From positions 1-38,584 of the IMG/VR virus record IMGVR_UViG_3300027714_002866: a DNA stretch of 38,584 nucleotides; one strand, 5' to 3'. Position numbers and translations under genes: made by a program. Source of the DNA: a virus. Shown here piece by piece: positions 137-38,584 of this stretch. Numbering within the stretch: the stretch's first letter is position 1; every line of letters begins with the position of its first letter. Under the pieces are notes generated by a model. It ran no database searches and was not told where the DNA came from. It saw only the letters and a program-made list of their open reading frames with translations.

Positions 137-664
137 AGGTCAGATGGGGATATCAGCTCAGATGGGTCTATAAGGTCAGATGGGGATATCAGCTCAGATG
201 GGTCTATAAGGTCAGGTGGGTATATAAGGTCAGGTCGGTCTATAAGGTCAGGTCGGTCTATAAGGTCAGGTGGGTATATAAGGTCAGGTCGGTCTATAAG
301 CTCAGGTGGGGATATAAGGTCAGGTGGGGATATCATCTCAGATTGGTCTATAAGGTCAGGTGGGGCTATAAGGTCAGGTGGGTATATAAGGTCAGGTCGG
401 TCTATAAGCTCAGGTGGGGATATAAGGTCAGGTGGGGCTATCATCTCAGGTGGGGATATAAGGTCAGGTGGGGATATCATCTCAGATGGGGCTATCAGCT
501 CAGGTGGGTCTATAAGCTCAGGTGGGGATATAAGGTCAGGTGGGGATATCATCTCAGATTGGTCTATAAGGTCAGGTGGGGCTATCAGCTCAGATGGGTA
601 TATCAGCTCAGATGGGTATATCAGCTCAGGTGGGGATATCAGCTCAGATGGGAATAAAAAATGA
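11..664 (+). CDS. Hexapeptide-repeat protein, array copy B
   Basis: This 217-residue protein has a 41-residue leader, acidic and hydrophobic (around LIIIEKESELEEYELDGEL), then 29 perfect six-residue units of pattern I-x-S-x-G-x, ending in KK. Invariant I, S and (mostly) G alternate with variable positions: R/S/I, D/G, and S/D/Y/A/N. The I to small-residue spacing resembles hexapeptide left-handed beta-helix proteins, so a beta-solenoid is inferred; no transferase active site is visible. There is no signal peptide or membrane segment. The start is preceded by GGGAT in the end of copy A, and the stop overlaps the start of copy C (ATGA), so the copies are probably translated in series. The function is unknown; surface recognition is a guess. 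Confidence 0.8.
   Translation: MTKNKLIIIEKESELEEYELDGELYFPSDVQFSIDIFTKFSIRSDGDISSDGSIRSDGDISSDGSIRSGGYIRSGRSIRSGRSIRSGGYIRSGRSISSGGDIRSGGDIISDWSIRSGGAIRSGGYIRSGRSISSGGDIRSGGAIISGGDIRSGGDIISDGAISSGGSISSGGDIRSGGDIISDWSIRSGGAISSDGYISSDGYISSGGDISSDGNKK
134..655 (+). repeat. 18-bp tandem repeat array, 29 units
   Basis: There are twenty-nine consecutive 18-base units with no indel. Each unit reads X, ATA or ATC, a third codon AGG/AGC/ATC, TCA, GAT or GGT, then usually GGG (sometimes CGG or TGG). The first codon X is GAT, TCT, TAT, GCT or AAT. The units are combinations of a small set of codons rather than randomly diverged copies. Confidence 0.95.
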
Positions 665-1273: not shown

Positions 1274-1530
1274 ACATAGCAAGAGCAGCGGGATTATTAA
1301 CAAGATCAGTGCCAGTAACGGCAAGAAGTTTTAGTAAAAGTATAAAAGCAGAGGCGTTACATACACTAAATAAGATGGAAAATAGGGGTGAGGTAGTTAT
1401 AAATAGTGTAGATACATTAGTCATAATCAAACAAACGGAGATTAAAGTACTCAGTAAATCCGAGACTCAGCTTATCAAAGATTTAATTAAGTCGATTAAA
1501 GACAAAGGAGAAATAAATGATATTAAGTGA
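1270..1530 (+). CDS. Hypothetical protein, 86 aa
   Basis: A basic 86-residue protein that begins MNIARAAGLLTRSVPVTARS. It starts in the ATGA overlap with the preceding gene and ends 14 bases inside the following one. The middle part (about residues 20-60) looks like a short helix-strand fold, and the C-terminus is Lys/Ile-rich. There is no membrane segment. I do not recognise it; its place between the two repeat-protein types suggests only a shared transcript. Confidence 0.6.
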   Translation: MNIARAAGLLTRSVPVTARSFSKSIKAEALHTLNKMENRGEVVINSVDTLVIIKQTEIKVLSKSETQLIKDLIKSIKDKGEINDIK

Positions 1531-2293
1531 GTTTTTAGACGCAGTATGCGGGGATGAGCAAGACATAATAAAATACACACCAGCAGAGGCACTTGAGGCA
1601 GTTAAGCAGAATGGTGATTCACTCCAGTATGTAAATACACAGACAGAAGATATATGTCTTGAGGCAGTTAAGCAGAATGGTGAGGCACTTCAGTATGTAA
1701 ATACACAGACAGAAGATATATGTCTTGAGGCAGTTAAGCAGAATGGTGAGGCACTCCAGTATGTAAATACACAGACAGAAGATATATGTCTTGAGGCAGT
1801 TAAGCAGTATGGTTATGCACTCCAGTATGTAAATACACAGACAGAAGATATATGTCTTGAGGCAGTTAAGCAGAATGGTTATGCACTCCAGTATGTAAAT
1901 ACACAGACAGAAGATATATGTCTTGAGGCAGTTAAGCAGAATGGTGAGGCACTTCAGTATGTAAATACACAGACAGAAGATATATGTCTTGAGGCAGTTA
2001 AGCAGTATGGTTATGCACTTCGGTATGTAAATACACAGACAGAAGATATATGTCTTGAGGCAGTTAAGCAGAATGGTGAGGCACTTCAGTATGTAAATAC
2101 ACAGACAGAAGATATATGTCTTGAGGCAGTTAAGAAGTATGGTGAGGCACTTCGGTATGTAAATACGACTATCTTTGAAAAGGATATAGATATGTACTCT
2201 TTTAAAACAGAAGAACCCCTAATAATGTCGAGAATATCAAGTAGATTAGATGAAATAGAGAATCGCTTAAAAGAATTAGAAAGAATAGAGTAA
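1517..2293 (+). CDS. DUF4116-like 22-residue repeat protein
   Basis: This 258-residue protein has a 25-residue N-terminal part, nine 22-residue units (residues 26-223) of the form LEAVKQNGxALQYVNTQTED plus IC, and a C-terminal segment that looks like a short coiled coil (residues 238-258). The AVKxNGxALxY core matches the DUF4116 repeat pattern, an all-helical family seen in some bacteria and large viruses. Within the units only a few residues change: N or Y, E/Y/D after Gly, and Q or R. A good AAAGGAG precedes the start. The function is unknown; a helical-repeat binding surface is inferred. The following gene starts in its stop codon. Confidence 0.75.
   Translation: MILSEFLDAVCGDEQDIIKYTPAEALEAVKQNGDSLQYVNTQTEDICLEAVKQNGEALQYVNTQTEDICLEAVKQNGEALQYVNTQTEDICLEAVKQYGYALQYVNTQTEDICLEAVKQNGYALQYVNTQTEDICLEAVKQNGEALQYVNTQTEDICLEAVKQYGYALRYVNTQTEDICLEAVKQNGEALQYVNTQTEDICLEAVKKYGEALRYVNTTIFEKDIDMYSFKTEEPLIMSRISSRLDEIENRLKELERIE
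1592..2185 (+). repeat. 66-bp tandem repeats, nine units
   Basis: Nine 66-base units, nearly identical at the DNA level outside three variable codons. They encode the DUF4116-like protein. The last unit diverges in its second half. Such near-identity suggests recent expansion or continued homogenisation. Confidence 0.9.
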
Positions 2294-2535: not shown

Positions 2536-3021
2536 ATGACACATAAATTATTAGAAGCAGCTTATAAAGGTGATAAAGAGTTAGTAAAAGAGTTAGTTAA
2601 GGCAGGGGCAAATCTAGAGGCTAGAGATAGTTGGGGATATACAGCTCTTATATTGGCAACTTTTTACGGTAATAAAGAGGCAGTAAAAGAGTTAGTTAAG
2701 TTAGGGGCAAATCTAGAGGCTGCAGATGATAATGGAAAGACGGCTCTTATGTTGGCAGCTTGTAAAGGTCATAAAGAGATAATCCAAGTGTTAGTTAAGG
2801 CAGGGGCAGATATAGAGGCTACAAATAGGTATGGATATACGGCTCTTATGGTGGCAGCTTTAAGAGGTCATACAGAGGCAGTCAGCGCGTTAGTTCAGGC
2901 AGGGGCGGATATAGAGGCTACAACTGAGCGTGGAAGGACGGCTCTTATGTTGGCAGCTTCTAACGGTAATAAAGAGGTAGTAAAAGAGTTAGTTAAGTTA
3001 GGGGCAGAAAATAAAGGATAA
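2536..3021 (+). CDS. Ankyrin-repeat protein
   Basis: A 161-residue protein made almost wholly of about five ankyrin repeats of 33 residues. The hallmark GxTALMLAA segments lie near residues 34, 67, 100 and 133, with intervening ELVKxGAxxEA helices. Neither a signal peptide nor another domain is present. Ankyrin repeats bind proteins; the target here is unknown. The repeats are similar to each other in DNA as well, so they probably expanded recently. An AAAGGAG lies just before the start. It is the third repeat-protein class in this arm. Confidence 0.92.
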   Translation: MTHKLLEAAYKGDKELVKELVKAGANLEARDSWGYTALILATFYGNKEAVKELVKLGANLEAADDNGKTALMLAACKGHKEIIQVLVKAGADIEATNRYGYTALMVAALRGHTEAVSALVQAGADIEATTERGRTALMLAASNGNKEVVKELVKLGAENKG

Positions 3022-3190: not shown

Positions 3191-4393
3191 ATGAAAATAT
3201 TTGGTAAAGAAATTATAGATGAAAAATCAATTAGACAACTTGAAAGGTGTATTGGTGAAGAAGATATAGGTGTTCTTACCGCTGACGCACATTACGGTTA
3301 TGCTCATCCTATAGGAGGGGCTATAGCATATAAGAAGCACGTATCAGTGTCAGGTGTGGGATTTGATATAGCTTGCGGTAATAAGGCCGTAAGAACGACA
3401 ATAAAAGCCAACGATGTAGATGTTGAAAATGTAATGGATGAAATAGTTAGACGTATATCATTTGGTGTAGGACGTATAAATAATGAGCCAGTAGACCATC
3501 CTGTTTTCGATAAAATACAGAATTCTGTATTTAAACCGCAAAGAGAGCTTTTAAAGACGGCTATTCCTCAATTAGGTACTATTGGGAGCGGTAATCATTA
3601 CATTGATTTATTTGAAGATGAAGAGGGTTTTTTGTGGGTCGGTGTTCATTTTGGATCTAGAGGATTTGGGCACAAAACAGCAACTGGGTTTATTGCATTG
3701 TCTCAGGGTTTAGAATTTAATGAAAAAGGAAAAGAAGGCTCAATGGATTCTAAGCCTATTCTTCTAGATATTGATTCTACTATTGGACAAGACTATATAG
3801 AAGCCATGAAGTTAGCCGGGGATTATGCTTATGCTGGTAGAGATGTTGTCGTTGATAAGGTTCTTTCAATATTAGGCACAAAAGATGTCTCATTTGAGGT
3901 ACATAATCATCATAATTTTTCTTGGGAAGAAGAGCATTTTGGTAAAACGTATAATGTTGTTAGGAAGGGTTGCACTCCTGCATTCCCGGGGCAGTTTGGA
4001 TTCATCGGTTCAAATATGGAGGACTATTCCGTAATAGTAAAAGGTGTCGACTCAAAAGAAGCTAGAGAAGGGCTTTACTCTACTATACACGGGGCGGGTA
4101 GGGTAATGTCTAGGTCAGAAGCGGCTGGTAAAAAGAGGTGGATGCGCGGAGAGGATGGAGTAAAGCGTCCAACAATAGTTACTAAAGGTAAGGTTGACTT
4201 TGACACGGTAAAAGAAAGGGTCAGTAGTAAAGTTGTATTACGTGGAGCTGGAGCAGATGAAGCACCTGAGTGCTATAAAAATCTTGAAGAAGTTCTCACT
4301 TACCAAGGTAGTACAATAGAGGTAGTGCACAGGCTAAGACCTATTGGCGTTGCAATGGCTGGATCTGAAATTATCGACCCTTATAAAGATTAA
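3191..4393 (+). CDS. rtcB: RtcB-type 3'-phosphate RNA ligase
   Basis: A 400-residue homologue of RtcB, which joins RNA 2',3'-cyclic or 3'-phosphate ends to 5'-hydroxyl ends using GTP and manganese. Visible motifs are DAHYGYAHPIG (residues 32-42), GFDIACG (57-63, with D59 and metal-ligand C62), GTIGSGNHYID (129-139), HFGSRGFGH (153-161), HNHHNF (238-243), RKGCTPAFPGQ (258-268) and HGAGRVMSRSEA (300-311), whose His300 corresponds to the guanylylated histidine. Length and all key residues fit an active enzyme. A tRNA-Gln follows 23 bases downstream. In a phage, RtcB could reseal tRNAs cut by a host anticodon nuclease; that role is an inference. AGGAAAGGA precedes the start. Confidence 0.95.
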   Translation: MKIFGKEIIDEKSIRQLERCIGEEDIGVLTADAHYGYAHPIGGAIAYKKHVSVSGVGFDIACGNKAVRTTIKANDVDVENVMDEIVRRISFGVGRINNEPVDHPVFDKIQNSVFKPQRELLKTAIPQLGTIGSGNHYIDLFEDEEGFLWVGVHFGSRGFGHKTATGFIALSQGLEFNEKGKEGSMDSKPILLDIDSTIGQDYIEAMKLAGDYAYAGRDVVVDKVLSILGTKDVSFEVHNHHNFSWEEEHFGKTYNVVRKGCTPAFPGQFGFIGSNMEDYSVIVKGVDSKEAREGLYSTIHGAGRVMSRSEAAGKKRWMRGEDGVKRPTIVTKGKVDFDTVKERVSSKVVLRGAGADEAPECYKNLEEVLTYQGSTIEVVHRLRPIGVAMAGSEIIDPYKD

Positions 4394-25563: not shown

Positions 25564-26790
25564 TTAAAGATCATTAATATATTCTATCTTATTTTTTAAT
25601 GCTGCCATATAAAAATCATACCATTTATGGGCATGAGTCTGAATGGTATATTTTAAATTCACTTCTTTTTTCGCATTAGCACCAATGTTAAATCTTAAAA
25701 ATGGATCTTCAATTAATGTTTTAATCGAATCATACCAGTCATTTGTTGAGTGACATAAAACTCCGGTAACATTATTCTCAATATTCTGAATATATGGCTT
25801 ACAACCAGAGACTACTGATGGTATACCATAATAAGAATACTCTAGCCATTTTATATTTGATTTAGAAATATTAAATTTATTTACCTCAGGATCTAATAAC
25901 GGAATTAGTCCTATATCTAATATATCTTCTGAAAATTTATCATAAAATTTATCAGGCTCAATCCAGGGTATGAACTCAGCATCTAACTCTTTATACATTT
26001 TAGTAAATTTAGCTCCTGTAAATCTAAACTTTACCTTATCTTTATACTCATCTTTAATTCTTTTTAATGCTGGCATAATAAGTTTTAAGTCATGATGATG
26101 ACTATCCCCGCCCTGCCATCCAATTAATATATAGTCACGTTTTTTCTTTTTACCATCTGGCATCACATCTGGGTTAATATAATTTGGTAAAACACAGATA
26201 TTACTGTTATAAGTTCTAAATACGTTCGCTAATTCTTTAGTTGTAGTCGTTATAATATCTGAGTACATGACCGCTCTTAATATTTTTAAAACTCGTTTTC
26301 TATTTAAATCTAAATCAAAAATAAATTCTTTTTGTTCTTCTTTAGTTTTATCTTTATGCTCATTTGAGTGGTCACAAAGTGTTTTATCTTTCCAAAGCCA
26401 CTTATTATTTATTTTAATGTTTTCTAAACCTCCATATCTATAATATCTATTGGACGGATGTGTTTGAGTGACATCATCATCAAACTCAGATATAAATAAT
26501 TTAGGTATTTTTTCTTTTATACAGAGGTCATTAAATTTTGTGAGAATATCTGATGGAGCTGAGTACTGGAATATAAATATATCTGCCCAGTCAATAACTT
26601 TATCAAACCACTGAGCTGGATTCTTAATGAACTCCTTATTAGTTAAATCAATTCCAATTACCTCAACTAGTCCTCTTCTCTCAAGCTCCGCTAATGGCCA
26701 TTTGATACGGTAGTAATAGCAGAACCCCTCTTGTCTTGAAATAACACATATACGAAGCTTCCACCCTTCTGGTTTATTAATCTCCATCAT
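25564..26790 (-). CDS. Glycosyltransferase, GT-B type (GT4-like)
   Basis: A 408-residue protein beginning with a GT-B N-terminal strand (LRICVISRQEGFCYYYRIKW). The C-terminal donor-site region has SNIKWLEYSYYGIPSVVSG (about residues 320-338) and a GVLCHSTNDWYDSI segment, as in GT4 enzymes that move a sugar from a nucleotide donor. No membrane segment is seen. It starts in the ATGATG overlap with the methyltransferase and is last of a four-gene coupled cassette. It may decorate virion proteins or change host surface glycans; the substrate cannot be read from sequence. Confidence 0.7.
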   Translation of the reverse strand: MMEINKPEGWKLRICVISRQEGFCYYYRIKWPLAELERRGLVEVIGIDLTNKEFIKNPAQWFDKVIDWADIFIFQYSAPSDILTKFNDLCIKEKIPKLFISEFDDDVTQTHPSNRYYRYGGLENIKINNKWLWKDKTLCDHSNEHKDKTKEEQKEFIFDLDLNRKRVLKILRAVMYSDIITTTTKELANVFRTYNSNICVLPNYINPDVMPDGKKKKRDYILIGWQGGDSHHHDLKLIMPALKRIKDEYKDKVKFRFTGAKFTKMYKELDAEFIPWIEPDKFYDKFSEDILDIGLIPLLDPEVNKFNISKSNIKWLEYSYYGIPSVVSGCKPYIQNIENNVTGVLCHSTNDWYDSIKTLIEDPFLRFNIGANAKKEVNLKYTIQTHAHKWYDFYMAALKNKIEYINDL

Positions 26791-27464
26791 AATGACATTC
26801 CAATTAATCTAAAAATAGATTCATAATGATTTAAGTCATCTGAATTTATAAATTCATTTAAATTTTTATTTATATTTTTACCCACACATATCACTCCTAA
26901 TCCTTTTGAAAAATTCATACTGATAGATGGATACTCTAATGATATCTCAGTCCAATAACGTGATATCTCACAGTTATGAGAAAAGTCATTTATATAATTT
27001 ATTAAAATAATACCTGTATCACTCATTCGTGGTATGAAATCTGTTACTATTTCTTTTATATCAGAATACTTTTTAATTAAGTCTATGTTAAGAAAATCAA
27101 TATTATTGATATCTGTATCTTTAAAATCTTTTTCTATGATAGTTGAGAAGTTGATATATTCAGAATTTAGTTCTTTTATTTTATCAGAAGCTTCTTTTAT
27201 TTTGTCATAATTTACCCAATTCTCTATTCCATAGCATTTAGATTCTAATTTATACTCTTTAACAAATTGGCAAAAAGAAAAGTAAGAAGTACCTGCACCA
27301 ATGCCTAACTCTACTATTTTTTTAGGTTTAGTTAGTGCTAATAAGAAAAACCCAAAAGGTATATATTCTTTCCATTCTGATCTATACTTTACTCGATTAT
27401 TCATAAATATAGGGGCTTTATAGAAGTTTATAAACTTAAGTTCTAACATGTCTAAGAATTTCAT
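26787..27464 (-). CDS. Class I SAM-dependent methyltransferase
   Basis: A 225-residue protein with motif I IVELGIGAGTSYFSF (residues 50-64), a YGIENW acidic loop and an IDFLNIDLIKK strand near residue 120. GLGVICVGKN sits near the C-terminus, as in Methyltransf_24-type enzymes that often act beside glycosyltransferases. It probably methylates a sugar or a small substrate. It is coupled to both neighbours by 4-base overlaps, so cassette proteins should be made together. Confidence 0.7.
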   Translation of the reverse strand: MKFLDMLELKFINFYKAPIFMNNRVKYRSEWKEYIPFGFFLLALTKPKKIVELGIGAGTSYFSFCQFVKEYKLESKCYGIENWVNYDKIKEASDKIKELNSEYINFSTIIEKDFKDTDINNIDFLNIDLIKKYSDIKEIVTDFIPRMSDTGIILINYINDFSHNCEISRYWTEISLEYPSISMNFSKGLGVICVGKNINKNLNEFINSDDLNHYESIFRLIGMSL

Positions 27465-28204
27465 TTATTATAATCCTTTATAATCTCTTCTATTTTTTCT
27501 ATAATTCGACTACAGCTCTTCCCATCAATAAGAACCTCTATTTTACGACCCTTATTTACATGCATATAAGGACTATTATGACGTTGTTTATCTCTTCCTA
27601 ATATTTTTATACCGTGTTGCTCTCCAGTAATGTCAAATGTAGACATCACATCTGTATAAATTACTTTAGCGTTCTCATATAAATACTTACATTTAGCAAA
27701 GTGACTGACTGCAAATGTCTCAAATCTATCACTGAATAATATATTTAAATCCTGGTATAAGTCTCTATTAGTGTCTTCTGTCACTGTAGTCACAAAGTCA
27801 TCGCAGTAGTGTTCTTTACATAGAGTCTTAAGTTCTTCTCTCGTTAATGGTGGATGATTCCATTCCACAGGCATGTCATGGTCCTCAAATCTAAAATGCT
27901 GTGGAGCATAGACAAGTAAATGGGGTTTCTTTTTAGTTGGAATTGTTCGATCAAGAAATATACTACCCATATGATACGCTTTTAAACCTTTTTCTTTTAA
28001 AAACTCATATGTACATGAATTATTACAGAAGTAATGAATGTCATCATGCCACTGGTCTGGTCTTATAATACTGCTATCAGGTATCCCATGCTCAAACCAT
28101 ATAGTAGGCATATCATACTTTGTATACCCAAACTCTAGAGTCCATAGAATAGACACTTTCTCAAATAACTCATCTGGTATCCAGTCTACAGAGTGATGAC
28201 TCAT
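27461..28204 (-). CDS. Possible GT-B-fold glycosyl- or glycerophosphotransferase-like protein
   Basis: A 247-residue protein. The features PTIWFEHGIPDSS (residues 34-46), KAYHMGSIFLDRTIP, PHLLVYAPQHFRFED and a late VIYTDVMSTFDITGEQHGI recall the C-terminal half of CDP-glycerol transferases and related GT-B folds. No complete catalytic set is clear, and it is shorter than those families. It is placed in the same coupled cassette as the methyltransferase and glycosyltransferase, which supports a sugar-related role. Confidence 0.45.
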   Translation of the reverse strand: MSHHSVDWIPDELFEKVSILWTLEFGYTKYDMPTIWFEHGIPDSSIIRPDQWHDDIHYFCNNSCTYEFLKEKGLKAYHMGSIFLDRTIPTKKKPHLLVYAPQHFRFEDHDMPVEWNHPPLTREELKTLCKEHYCDDFVTTVTEDTNRDLYQDLNILFSDRFETFAVSHFAKCKYLYENAKVIYTDVMSTFDITGEQHGIKILGRDKQRHNSPYMHVNKGRKIEVLIDGKSCSRIIEKIEEIIKDYNK

Positions 28205-35220: not shown

Positions 35221-35450
35221 TATGTACTGTACGTTGTGATGATTAATTGGGGTTTTTACAGCAGCCACCTACAAAGGGGCAGCGGGTGACTGCTGTCATT
35301 ATTCTATCATAATTCTTTGATTTGTACTATACATTGTTATGATAACTGTTTGTTTTTTTATATATTGGTTTTTGTACTATACATTGTTATGATAATTGTT
35401 TGGGTTTTTTTGTACTATACATTGTTATGATAACTATTTGGGTTTTTTTG
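35221..35450. repeat. Iteron-like direct repeats upstream of late arm
   Basis: Three near-identical copies of TTTGTACTATACATTGTTAT followed by GATAA and TTTG start at 35321, 35371 and 35409. A degenerate copy (TATGTACTGTACGTTGTGAT) starts at 35221. Spacings are 100, 50 and 38 bases. They lie between the leftward promoter and the small terminase gene. They could bind a replication initiator or a late-gene regulator. Confidence 0.85.
35258..35296. promoter_or_regulatory. Imperfect hairpin between iterons
   Basis: ACAGCAGCCACC (35258-35269) pairs with GGTGACTGCTGT (35285-35296), 11 of 12 positions, around a 15-base loop. It sits between the degenerate first iteron and the second. There is no T-run in either direction after the stem. 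Confidence 0.5.
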
Positions 35451-35879
35451 TTGTTGGGTGTTGGGGTGGCAGCCAAGTATAAATAACGAAAAGCCCAATG
35501 TACCCCCCTTCCAACTTTCTGACCCTCTGCCGGTCTACATCTTTAATTGTCTAAGTCTTTAATTACTAACCCGGTGGACTATTTGACGGGTGAAGAGGGG
35601 GAAGGGTTGAGTGTTGGCTGACAATCAGCAACCACGCCCATCAAATACACCGATAACAGGCCACTCAAAGCCCATATAACTAACAGCCAACAAAGCACAA
35701 CTAACCAACCCAATACATTCCTCACATCCCATATAACCAACCTCTCAGCCAATCCACAGCAATAAAGTAACTGTATAAATAAATAATAGTGTGGATTACG
35801 ATAACTAATAACTGGTAACAGTTTAAAAGTTAGGGAAGTATCTTAATAATTTAAAATACTATATCAAAGAGCTATATAT

Positions 35880-36149: not shown

Positions 36150-36326
36150 ATGAGGAAATTCAAACTGCTACGTCACGTTGCACGAAGCACAACAACCCTG
36201 AAACAAACAAAGAAAACAACAACCACATCACCACCAGTCACATCACGCCAAAACAAACCACAACCAACCAAACCCAACAGAAACACCAAAAAAACAAAAA
36301 AAACTTACACACAACAACCCAACACC
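36150..36326. other. A/C-rich, G-poor strand between inverted repeats
   Basis: From about 36180 to 36326 the plus strand is nearly all A and C, with hardly any G and few T. An 84-codon frame runs through it (36150-36404) but has no ribosome site and a low-complexity Thr/Lys/Pro product, so I do not call it a gene. Such strand asymmetry would keep one strand unstructured. Confidence 0.6.
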
Positions 36327-36377
36327 AAAAAAGTTTTCTGCACGTTGAGCCTAGCACTTGCAGATTTGCAGAAAACT
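36327..36377. repeat. Right half of nested inverted repeats
   Basis: AGTTTTCTGCA (36332-36342) and TGCAGAAAACT (36367-36377) form a local stem, mirroring 35995-36040. The arm AAAAAGTTTTCTGCACGTTG (from 36328) is the complement of the left arm. The two halves are about 280 bases apart. Confidence 0.85.
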
Positions 36378-36486
36378 CACCAGATATCAAATCCAATTAC
36401 CTAGACTATCATATACAACACAACCAACAAAGTAACCCCTCAGAAAGGTTACCTTTGTATACAACCCATTAAGCCCATAGGGTTAA

Positions 36487-37089: not shown

Positions 37090-37635
37090 ATGAAGAAAGC
37101 ATATTTAATGATAGATGAGATATACAGAGACAAAGATTTCAATGAAGTACATGCCGATGAGTTTTTAGATATGAAAGAGGACACATATATAAAATTCATA
37201 GATCAGGATAAGTTTAACGCATATAATTCAAGAATATCACTATCAGATATAAAAGAAATAAAAGAATTAGTAGATGACTGGAAAGAGGTTATCGGGAATA
37301 TTAAGGAAAGTGAATCAGATTTTGAGGTAGACGGTTATAGATTTATAAGAAAAGAAGATATTGATCAGATTATGATCGATGAGCTATCAAGCGATACTTA
37401 TACGCTGGGTTGCTTTAACTCTTCATTTATAGCAGGTATAACAGGACTGGGCCAGGATATGATAGATAGGGCTCAAAAGGCTGATAACTTTGAGTTGCTA
37501 GGTGAATTAATGTTATTGAAAATAGATGCAGTACAAGAAGAATATTCCGCATTATACGGATACGGTAATCATTTCGCGAGTTACGACCATAACGAGAACG
37601 AAATATTAGATTATTATGCATTTAGAGTTAATTAG
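37090..37635 (+). CDS. Hypothetical phage protein, 181 aa
   Basis: A 181-residue acidic protein. The C-terminal half (GCFNSSFIAGITGLGQDMID, then YGYGNHFASYDHNENEI and YYAFRVN) has the look of a conserved phage early protein family with a YGxHFxxYD element, for which I know no function. GTTAGAGGAG before the start is its ribosome site. Confidence 0.6.
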   Translation: MKKAYLMIDEIYRDKDFNEVHADEFLDMKEDTYIKFIDQDKFNAYNSRISLSDIKEIKELVDDWKEVIGNIKESESDFEVDGYRFIRKEDIDQIMIDELSSDTYTLGCFNSSFIAGITGLGQDMIDRAQKADNFELLGELMLLKIDAVQEEYSALYGYGNHFASYDHNENEILDYYAFRVN

Positions 37636-37656
37636 TAAAAATAAAGGGGTAAATAA

Positions 37657-37848
37657 ATGAAGAATAATATCGAGTTAAGAGATTGGTTTGCGGGGATGGC
37701 TATTAGTTCAATAGATTTTAATAAAGCAGGTACTACGTATGCATTAGCGAAACTAGCCTATGAAATAGCCGATGAGATGATGAAAAGAAGGGAACGAGAG
37801 AGCATTAGAGTAAGGCAACAGGGAATAGCCGATGGGAATAAAAAATGA
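37657..37848 (+). CDS. Small phage protein leading into the hexapeptide array
   Basis: A 63-residue helical protein (NIELRDWFAGMAISS, then TYALAKLAYEIADEMMKRRE), like small phage proteins often annotated only as hypothetical. Its last codons (GATGGGAATAAAAAATGAG, 37834-37852) are identical to the end of array copy B, and its stop overlaps copy A's start (ATGA). The array junction thus seems to have been copied from or joined to this gene. Confidence 0.6.
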   Translation: MKNNIELRDWFAGMAISSIDFNKAGTTYALAKLAYEIADEMMKRRERESIRVRQQGIADGNKK

Positions 37849-38462
37849 GTAAAAACAAACTAATAATAATAGAAAAAGAAAGTGAATTAGAAGAATATGA
37901 ATTAGATGGAGAGTTATATTTCCCTTTTGATGTCCAATTCAGTATAGATATATTCACTAATTTTTCTATAAGGTCAGGTGGGAATATCAGCTCAGATGGG
38001 TATATCATCTCAGATGGGAATATCATCTCAGTTGGGAATATCATCTCAGATGTGGCTATAAGCTCAGGTGGGTATACCATCTCAGGTGGGAATATCATCT
38101 CAGGTGGGAATATCAGCTCAGATGGGGCTATAAGCTCAGATGGGTATATCATCTCAGATGGGGCTATCATCTCAGTTGGGAATATCATCTCAGGTGGGTA
38201 TATCATCTCAGATGGGGATATCATCTCAGATGGGGCTATCAGATCAGTTGGGAATATCATCTCAGGTGGGTATATAAGGTCAGTTGGGGCTATAAGGTCA
38301 GATGGGTATATAATGTCAGGTCGGTCTATAAGGTCAGGTGGGGCTATAAGCTCAGTTGGGGCTATCATCTCAGATGGGGATATCATCTCAGGTGGGGCTA
38401 TCAGCTCAGATGGGGATATCATCTCAGTTGGGTATATCATCTCAGATGGGGATAGAAAATGA
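37845..38462 (+). CDS. Hexapeptide-repeat protein, array copy A
   Basis: A 205-residue protein: a 41-residue leader, 27 hexapeptide units and RK. Its leader differs from copies B and C by F for S at residue 28 (TTT versus TCT). Its unit set favours AAT first codons and ATC-ATC second-third codons, unlike copy B's ATA-AGG. Rare variants are ATG at position 3 (IMSGR) and Thr in place of the invariant Ile (TISGG). Its stop overlaps the start at 38459. A beta-solenoid is inferred; the function is unknown. Confidence 0.8.
   Translation: MSKNKLIIIEKESELEEYELDGELYFPFDVQFSIDIFTNFSIRSGGNISSDGYIISDGNIISVGNIISDVAISSGGYTISGGNIISGGNISSDGAISSDGYIISDGAIISVGNIISGGYIISDGDIISDGAIRSVGNIISGGYIRSVGAIRSDGYIMSGRSIRSGGAISSVGAIISDGDIISGGAISSDGDIISVGYIISDGDRK
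37968..38453 (+). repeat. 18-bp tandem repeat array, 27 units
   Basis: Twenty-seven units of the same 18-base family, in frame. The mix of codon variants differs from both other arrays, with more ATC-ATC and GTT and many AAT first codons. Confidence 0.95.
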
Positions 38463-38584
38463 CTAAAAACAAACTAATAATAATAGAAAAAGAAAGTGAA
38501 TTAGAAGAATATGAATTAGATGGAGAGTTATATTTCCCTTCTGATGTCCAATTCAGTATAGATATATTCACTAATTTTTCTATA
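38449..38584. repeat. Direct terminal repeat (right copy)
   Basis: Matches bases 1-136 except T at 38575 for G at 127. The T is also what array copies A and C carry at this leader site. Confidence 0.75.
38459..38584 (+). CDS. Truncated start of array copy B (or a further copy)
   Basis: The leader of a hexapeptide-repeat gene (ATGACT start, like copy B) that runs off the window end at leader codon 42. It is most simply the same gene as 11-664 seen again through circular redundancy. The one-base difference leaves room for a fourth copy lost in assembly. Confidence 0.7.
   Translation, partial: MTKNKLIIIEKESELEEYELDGELYFPSDVQFSIDIFTNFSI

Follow-up and report, generated by a model that had tools for sequence, protein, structure and literature searches.

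The closest counterparts of the repeat genes described here are uncharacterised phage hexapeptide-repeat β-solenoid proteins (L075, L085, L039, L044, L053, L054, L071 and A0A6J5SK54), which likewise begin with a short leader and continue with I-x-S-x-G-x units. They are mostly encoded by a single gene in the available stretch, and some carry a C-terminal domain that is missing in the present genes. The same repeat style is seen in the bactofilin, FapA and MinC C-terminal β-helix families, with weak profile matches to the present genes or their relatives. Tandem copies of a phage gene are known from T4, which amplifies its anti-defence gene tifA in tandem through 6-10 bp microhomologies (PMC9391042), while tandem repeats within a gene occur as the BACON-domain repeats of crAss-like phages (PMC6949934). 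The locus under study lies in the IMG/VR virus record IMGVR_UViG_3300027714_002866, the whole of which (38,584 nt) is referred to as the window. It resembles the T4 case in its tandem gene copies and in the apparent short microhomology at their joins; however, the gain in T4 is higher expression of one gene, whereas the copies in the window have different arrays. Likewise, the BACON repeats are domain-sized, in contrast to the six-residue units in tandem paralogs found here. We propose, with a probability of roughly 0.6, that the locus consists of tandem paralogous solenoid genes whose copies change by leader recombination and whose arrays change by slower unit recombination or slippage, and that these genes are accessory and probably early.

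Three plus-strand genes make up the locus. g1 (37845-38462, 205 aa) combines a 123-nt leader with 27 hexapeptide units, g2 (11-664, 217 aa) the leader with 29 units, and g3 (661-1116, 151 aa) the leader with 17 units and a short tail. Their leaders differ at three sites in 123 nt, namely nt 5 (S/T), nt 83 (F/S) and nt 117 (N/K), all of them non-synonymous. An additional leader copy on the plus strand at the right end of the window (38459-38584) carries C5, C83 and T117 and differs from the leader at 11-136 by a single mismatch. In g1, g3 and the copy at 38459, the start codon overlaps the stop codon of the preceding gene, which supports translation of all copies. An earlier note on this DNA had correctly located three genes with a near-invariant 123-base leader; its description of them as consecutive holds for the adjacent g2 and g3, and for g1 and g2 only if the window ends are joined. 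Long reverse-strand ORFs across the arrays are not genes but a consequence of a unit length divisible by three.

All 73 units (27 + 29 + 17) are 18 bp long and in frame, with zero indels in any of the three genes, as the same note had stated. They fall into 38 distinct sequences at the DNA level and 34 distinct peptides. Variation mainly concerns codons 1, 3 and 5 and the use of ATA or ATC as codon 2; codon 6 varies rarely, and the third positions of codons 1, 4, 5 and 6 are invariant in 73/73 units. The units can hence be regarded as combinations of a few codon choices, as previously suggested. The impression that they occur in different orders and mixes also holds statistically, since pairs of arrays align no better than shuffled units: equally good unit-level alignments were obtained in 404/500 shuffles for g1-g2, in 369/500 for g1-g3 and in 85/500 for g2-g3, the last likewise not significant. 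g2 contains a 79-bp exact internal duplication (0/60 shuffles) and has a 53-bp exact stretch in common with g3 (2/60 shuffles). Neither the g1 nor the g3 array contains internal block repeats beyond chance, which counts against ordinary slippage, as this would normally leave such a signal. Linkage between variable sites declines from 0.19 at 1-3 bp to approximately zero beyond 15 bp, and few singleton changes are found among the units. Shuffling thus seemingly proceeded faster than point mutation, most simply by recombination among a small number of founder unit types.

The AlphaFold2 model of g2 (pLDDT 95.4, pTM 0.90) is a regular solenoid to which every unit contributes one short strand. The protein is therefore predicted to be a β-solenoid in which the leader forms an N-terminal cap and each unit adds one strand. 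Such a capped β-solenoid is also indicated by the best viral fold match in BFVD, the uncharacterised Caudovirales protein A0A6J5SK54 (E 1.3e-6, TM 0.74), and the arrays of six-residue units, all in frame and nearly invariant at I, S and G, agree with the phage hexapeptide-repeat β-solenoid proteins introduced above. A fold search of solved structures in the PDB gave no match at E <= 0.001. The window genes also stay under the Pfam cut-offs of the known β-helix families: the best MinC_C score is 22.8 bits (cut-off 33.2) and that of FapA 16.2 (cut-off 31), and the bactofilin profile has no match among the window genes but does match relatives. The haemagglutinin-repeat profile Fil_haemagg (cut-off 21.5) is passed only by g3 (24.6). 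Membership in the left-handed β-helix acyltransferases (LpxA/GlmU/gamma-CA) is not indicated (YrdA, E 0.034). By analogy with the FapA, MinC_C and haemagglutinin-repeat families, three units likely form one turn. A three-unit period, as for stacking on one face, is not supported, as none of the three arrays shows excess similarity at lag 3.

A terminase search retrieved G003 and four near-identical contigs (G004-G007) of a related phage, which are syntenic with the window over most genes. At the slot of the window's repeat genes, G003 and G005 likewise carry multiple short-unit repeat genes, but these belong to other repeat classes and have unrelated leaders. G003 (L026/L027) encodes two pentapeptide-repeat genes with two small ORFs between them. 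A partial copy is located at the start of this contig, whose ends again lie inside a repeat gene. In G005, two tandem genes have leaders differing at 11/231 nt, followed by GNSxQY hexapeptide arrays that cannot be aligned with each other. The solenoid model of the G005 protein was unusable (pLDDT 45); its secondary structure has one strand per unit. The arrays of G005-G007 are the same, with no unit changes; in G004, the contig ends fall inside the array, and their join cannot be relied on. Outside this group, tandem pairs were found on two unrelated viral contigs, L071 and L167. In L167, the leaders share 79% identity but the arrays cannot be aligned, whereas the L071 arrays are still collinear, so that leaders are alike and arrays unlike in two of three pairs (G005 and L167). 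Moreover, window-type I-x-S-x-G leader-plus-array genes are present on at least seven further viral contigs. g3 had no match in GenBank phages and the leader none in plasmids, and the matches inspected in a non-exhaustive search of GTDB genomes for the hexapeptide pattern were low-complexity or unrelated, with no small leader-plus-array gene among them. The statement that no phage system with this layout had been described is in line with our search of the open-access literature, which yielded no such description; this phage is not the only one with the layout, however, which recurs in the relatives, L071 and L167.

The surroundings of g1 and g3 point to how the copies may have originated. A 63-aa ORF upstream of g1 (37657-37848, plus strand) ends in GATGGGAATAAAAA, the 14 nt preceding the g1 start, and the same stretch recurs at the g2/g3 junction (647-660, plus strand), where the last repeat unit runs into it and the next ATG follows. 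GATGGGAATAAAAA before g1 is the probable left breakpoint of a tandem duplication. The unit type GAT-GGG-AAT-A has ten bases in common with GATGGGAATAAAAA, which suggests the point of joining: the copies would have arisen by a tandem duplication that apparently fused a unit with the terminal part of the upstream ORF via the shared GATGGGAATA. An equivalent of this 14-nt scar can be recognized in G005, in which the last ~21 nt before the first of the two repeat genes are found again between them, with 2 mismatches. The proteins searched included no identifiable phage recombinase; given the amplification of tifA in T4 through 6-10 bp homologies, no new machinery would be needed.

Evidence for a change in gene number comes from a near-identical contig of 4311 bp from another IMG/VR assembly (IMGVR_UViG_3300006947_003276, termed L006), which was the sole match in IMG/VR searches for further strains with the DNA-unit pattern as well as with the upstream gene as probe. 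L006 equals positions 37368-38584 of the window for 1217 bases with zero mismatches and then enters the g3 array. Independently of the window, a single contig thereby links the upstream gene with g1 and with a leader of the C5 type; the order in L006 is g1, one hybrid leader and the g3 array, and g2 is absent. At nt 5 this second leader carries the C of g2 and at nt 117 the T of g3, the haplotype that also forms the last 126 bases of the window, whereas the first bases of the window are the g2 leader. An apparent loss of g2 together with a hybrid leader is as expected for recombination between leaders. The ends of the window overlap by 136 bp with 1 mismatch, at leader nt 117, which rules out a clean terminal repeat as a sign of circularity, and a further repeat-gene copy may be located at the window break. 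The source population may hold both alleles, and an assembly chimera is possible.

The latter explanation deserves consideration, as both contigs are metagenome assemblies, probably from short reads, and identical leaders are sites where assemblers collapse or mis-join. L006 and the 3' end of the window could thus be short-k chimeras over identical leaders, with gene number being constant in reality. The 123-nt near-identical leader is a classic place for a false join, and the window's own ends do not close cleanly. Yet, a mere collapse would not explain L006, which differs from the window by a substitution in an 86-aa ORF, by one instead of two copies of a 12-bp repeat and by several changes in the DUF4116 gene, and so represents a distinct strain. 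In addition, the hybrid leader requires C5 and T117 together, a combination found in two contigs. We therefore consider an artefact possible but rather unlikely. The g1 array and the g3 array are each base-identical between the two contigs; at this distance, gene number may change, while unit order does not. The earlier note had held that an identical unit order in all related genomes and in single molecules would speak against its candidate variation system, and the order of both arrays is indeed identical in L006. Of the proposed recombination or slippage, the part concerning recombination at the locus appears to be upheld (absence of g2, hybrid leader, nine versus six DUF4116 units), whereas a fast or dedicated shuffling of units is not supported, the arrays being the same.

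On the reading of tandem paralogous solenoid genes, the locus would comprise a few related accessory genes in tandem, probably early ones, in which each I-x-S-x-G-x unit would add a six-residue strand-turn with the x residues as variable face. Copies would now be gained and lost via homologous recombination between near-identical leaders, and arrays would diversify at a slower pace, through recombination or slippage by whole multiples of 18 bp, so that the frame is always kept. Cap, start codon and coupled translation would stay fixed while the arrays change, and the outcome would be paralogs with the same fold and different surfaces.

Alternatively, diversifying selection may have acted on point mutations at surface residues of the solenoid, with the remainder homogenised in concert and shuffling being secondary. 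The location of the variation at codons 1, 3 and 5 would fit, as would unit pN/pS ratios of 2.1, 1.9 and 1.9 in the window, 4.3 in L044 and 1.95 in L075, although pairwise unit ratios are non-independent and synonymous sites may be homogenised. However, the ratio is 0.31 and 0.48 in G005 and 0.34 in L054, and the few singletons leave little mutation visible. The selection signal is hence suggestive but not general (~2 in the window, below 0.5 in G005 and L054), and this explanation appears unlikely.

The repeat genes are on the plus strand upstream of replication genes (primase, helicase) and beside small ORFs, a placement kept in the relatives, whereas the structural module (terminase, portal, capsid) is on the minus strand. 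From this placement, an intracellular, early host-directed role may be inferred. The neighbouring DUF4116 repeat gene (1517-2293, plus strand) and ankyrin-repeat gene (2536-3021, plus strand; same protein in L006) also encode repeat proteins of a binding type, and the proteins of the locus would most likely serve to bind host or defence factors inside the cell at an early stage of infection. The DUF4116 gene consists of 66-bp units, nine in the window and six in L006, with little silent variation; the first five are identical and the last different between both contigs. The 12-bp repeat TAGACTAATGAC at 2286-2316, with ~2 copies in the window and one in L006, alters the N-terminus of the next ORF (MTRLMTRLD in the window, MTRLD in L006). 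At 3191-4393, this 38-kb phage genome encodes an RtcB-type RNA ligase (Pfam E 1.4e-61) with no counterpart in G003-G005 by protein comparison. A 38-bp tandem repeat (35369-35451) and a threonine/lysine-rich ORF (36150-36404) are positioned between the structural and early modules, and a glycosyltransferase-like gene with two neighbours (25564-28204) lies amid capsid and tail genes and is conserved in the compared relatives.

β-Solenoids are common in phage fibres, and the proteins might accordingly be virion or receptor-binding solenoids. Considering the strand and neighbourhood of their genes, which are shared by the relatives, this is very improbable, and the "new surfaces" envisaged previously are unlikely to be displayed on the virion. 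A dedicated fast variation system that shuffles units and keeps leaders as recombination anchors would account for the free combination of units, with linkage gone within ~15 bp, and for nearly fixed leaders next to unrelated arrays, but is highly improbable, as arrays are identical between strains (L006 and the window; G004-G007, with G004 cut by its contig ends) and the proteins searched contained no switching gene such as a reverse transcriptase or an invertase. As regards a diversity-generating retroelement, which would comprise a reverse transcriptase gene and a template/variable repeat pair, the subset of window ORFs covered gave no reverse transcriptase profile match.

Phage genomes repeatedly contain short-unit repeat genes to which no function has been assigned. 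As tandem paralogous solenoid genes, the present locus offers a natural example of a cap and an array evolving at unequal rates, and a candidate recombinant allele has been recorded. It is conceivable, if doubtful, that it exemplifies an undescribed recurrent phage strategy, in which fixed-cap tandem solenoid genes exchange or scramble their arrays by recombination and would thereby supply a repertoire of binders of the same fold against changing host targets, the fixed slot accepting different solenoid classes across relatives. The unequal rates, the candidate allele and the recurrence of the layout in unrelated phages together make the idea that tandem repeat paralogs represent a repertoire of binding surfaces testable.
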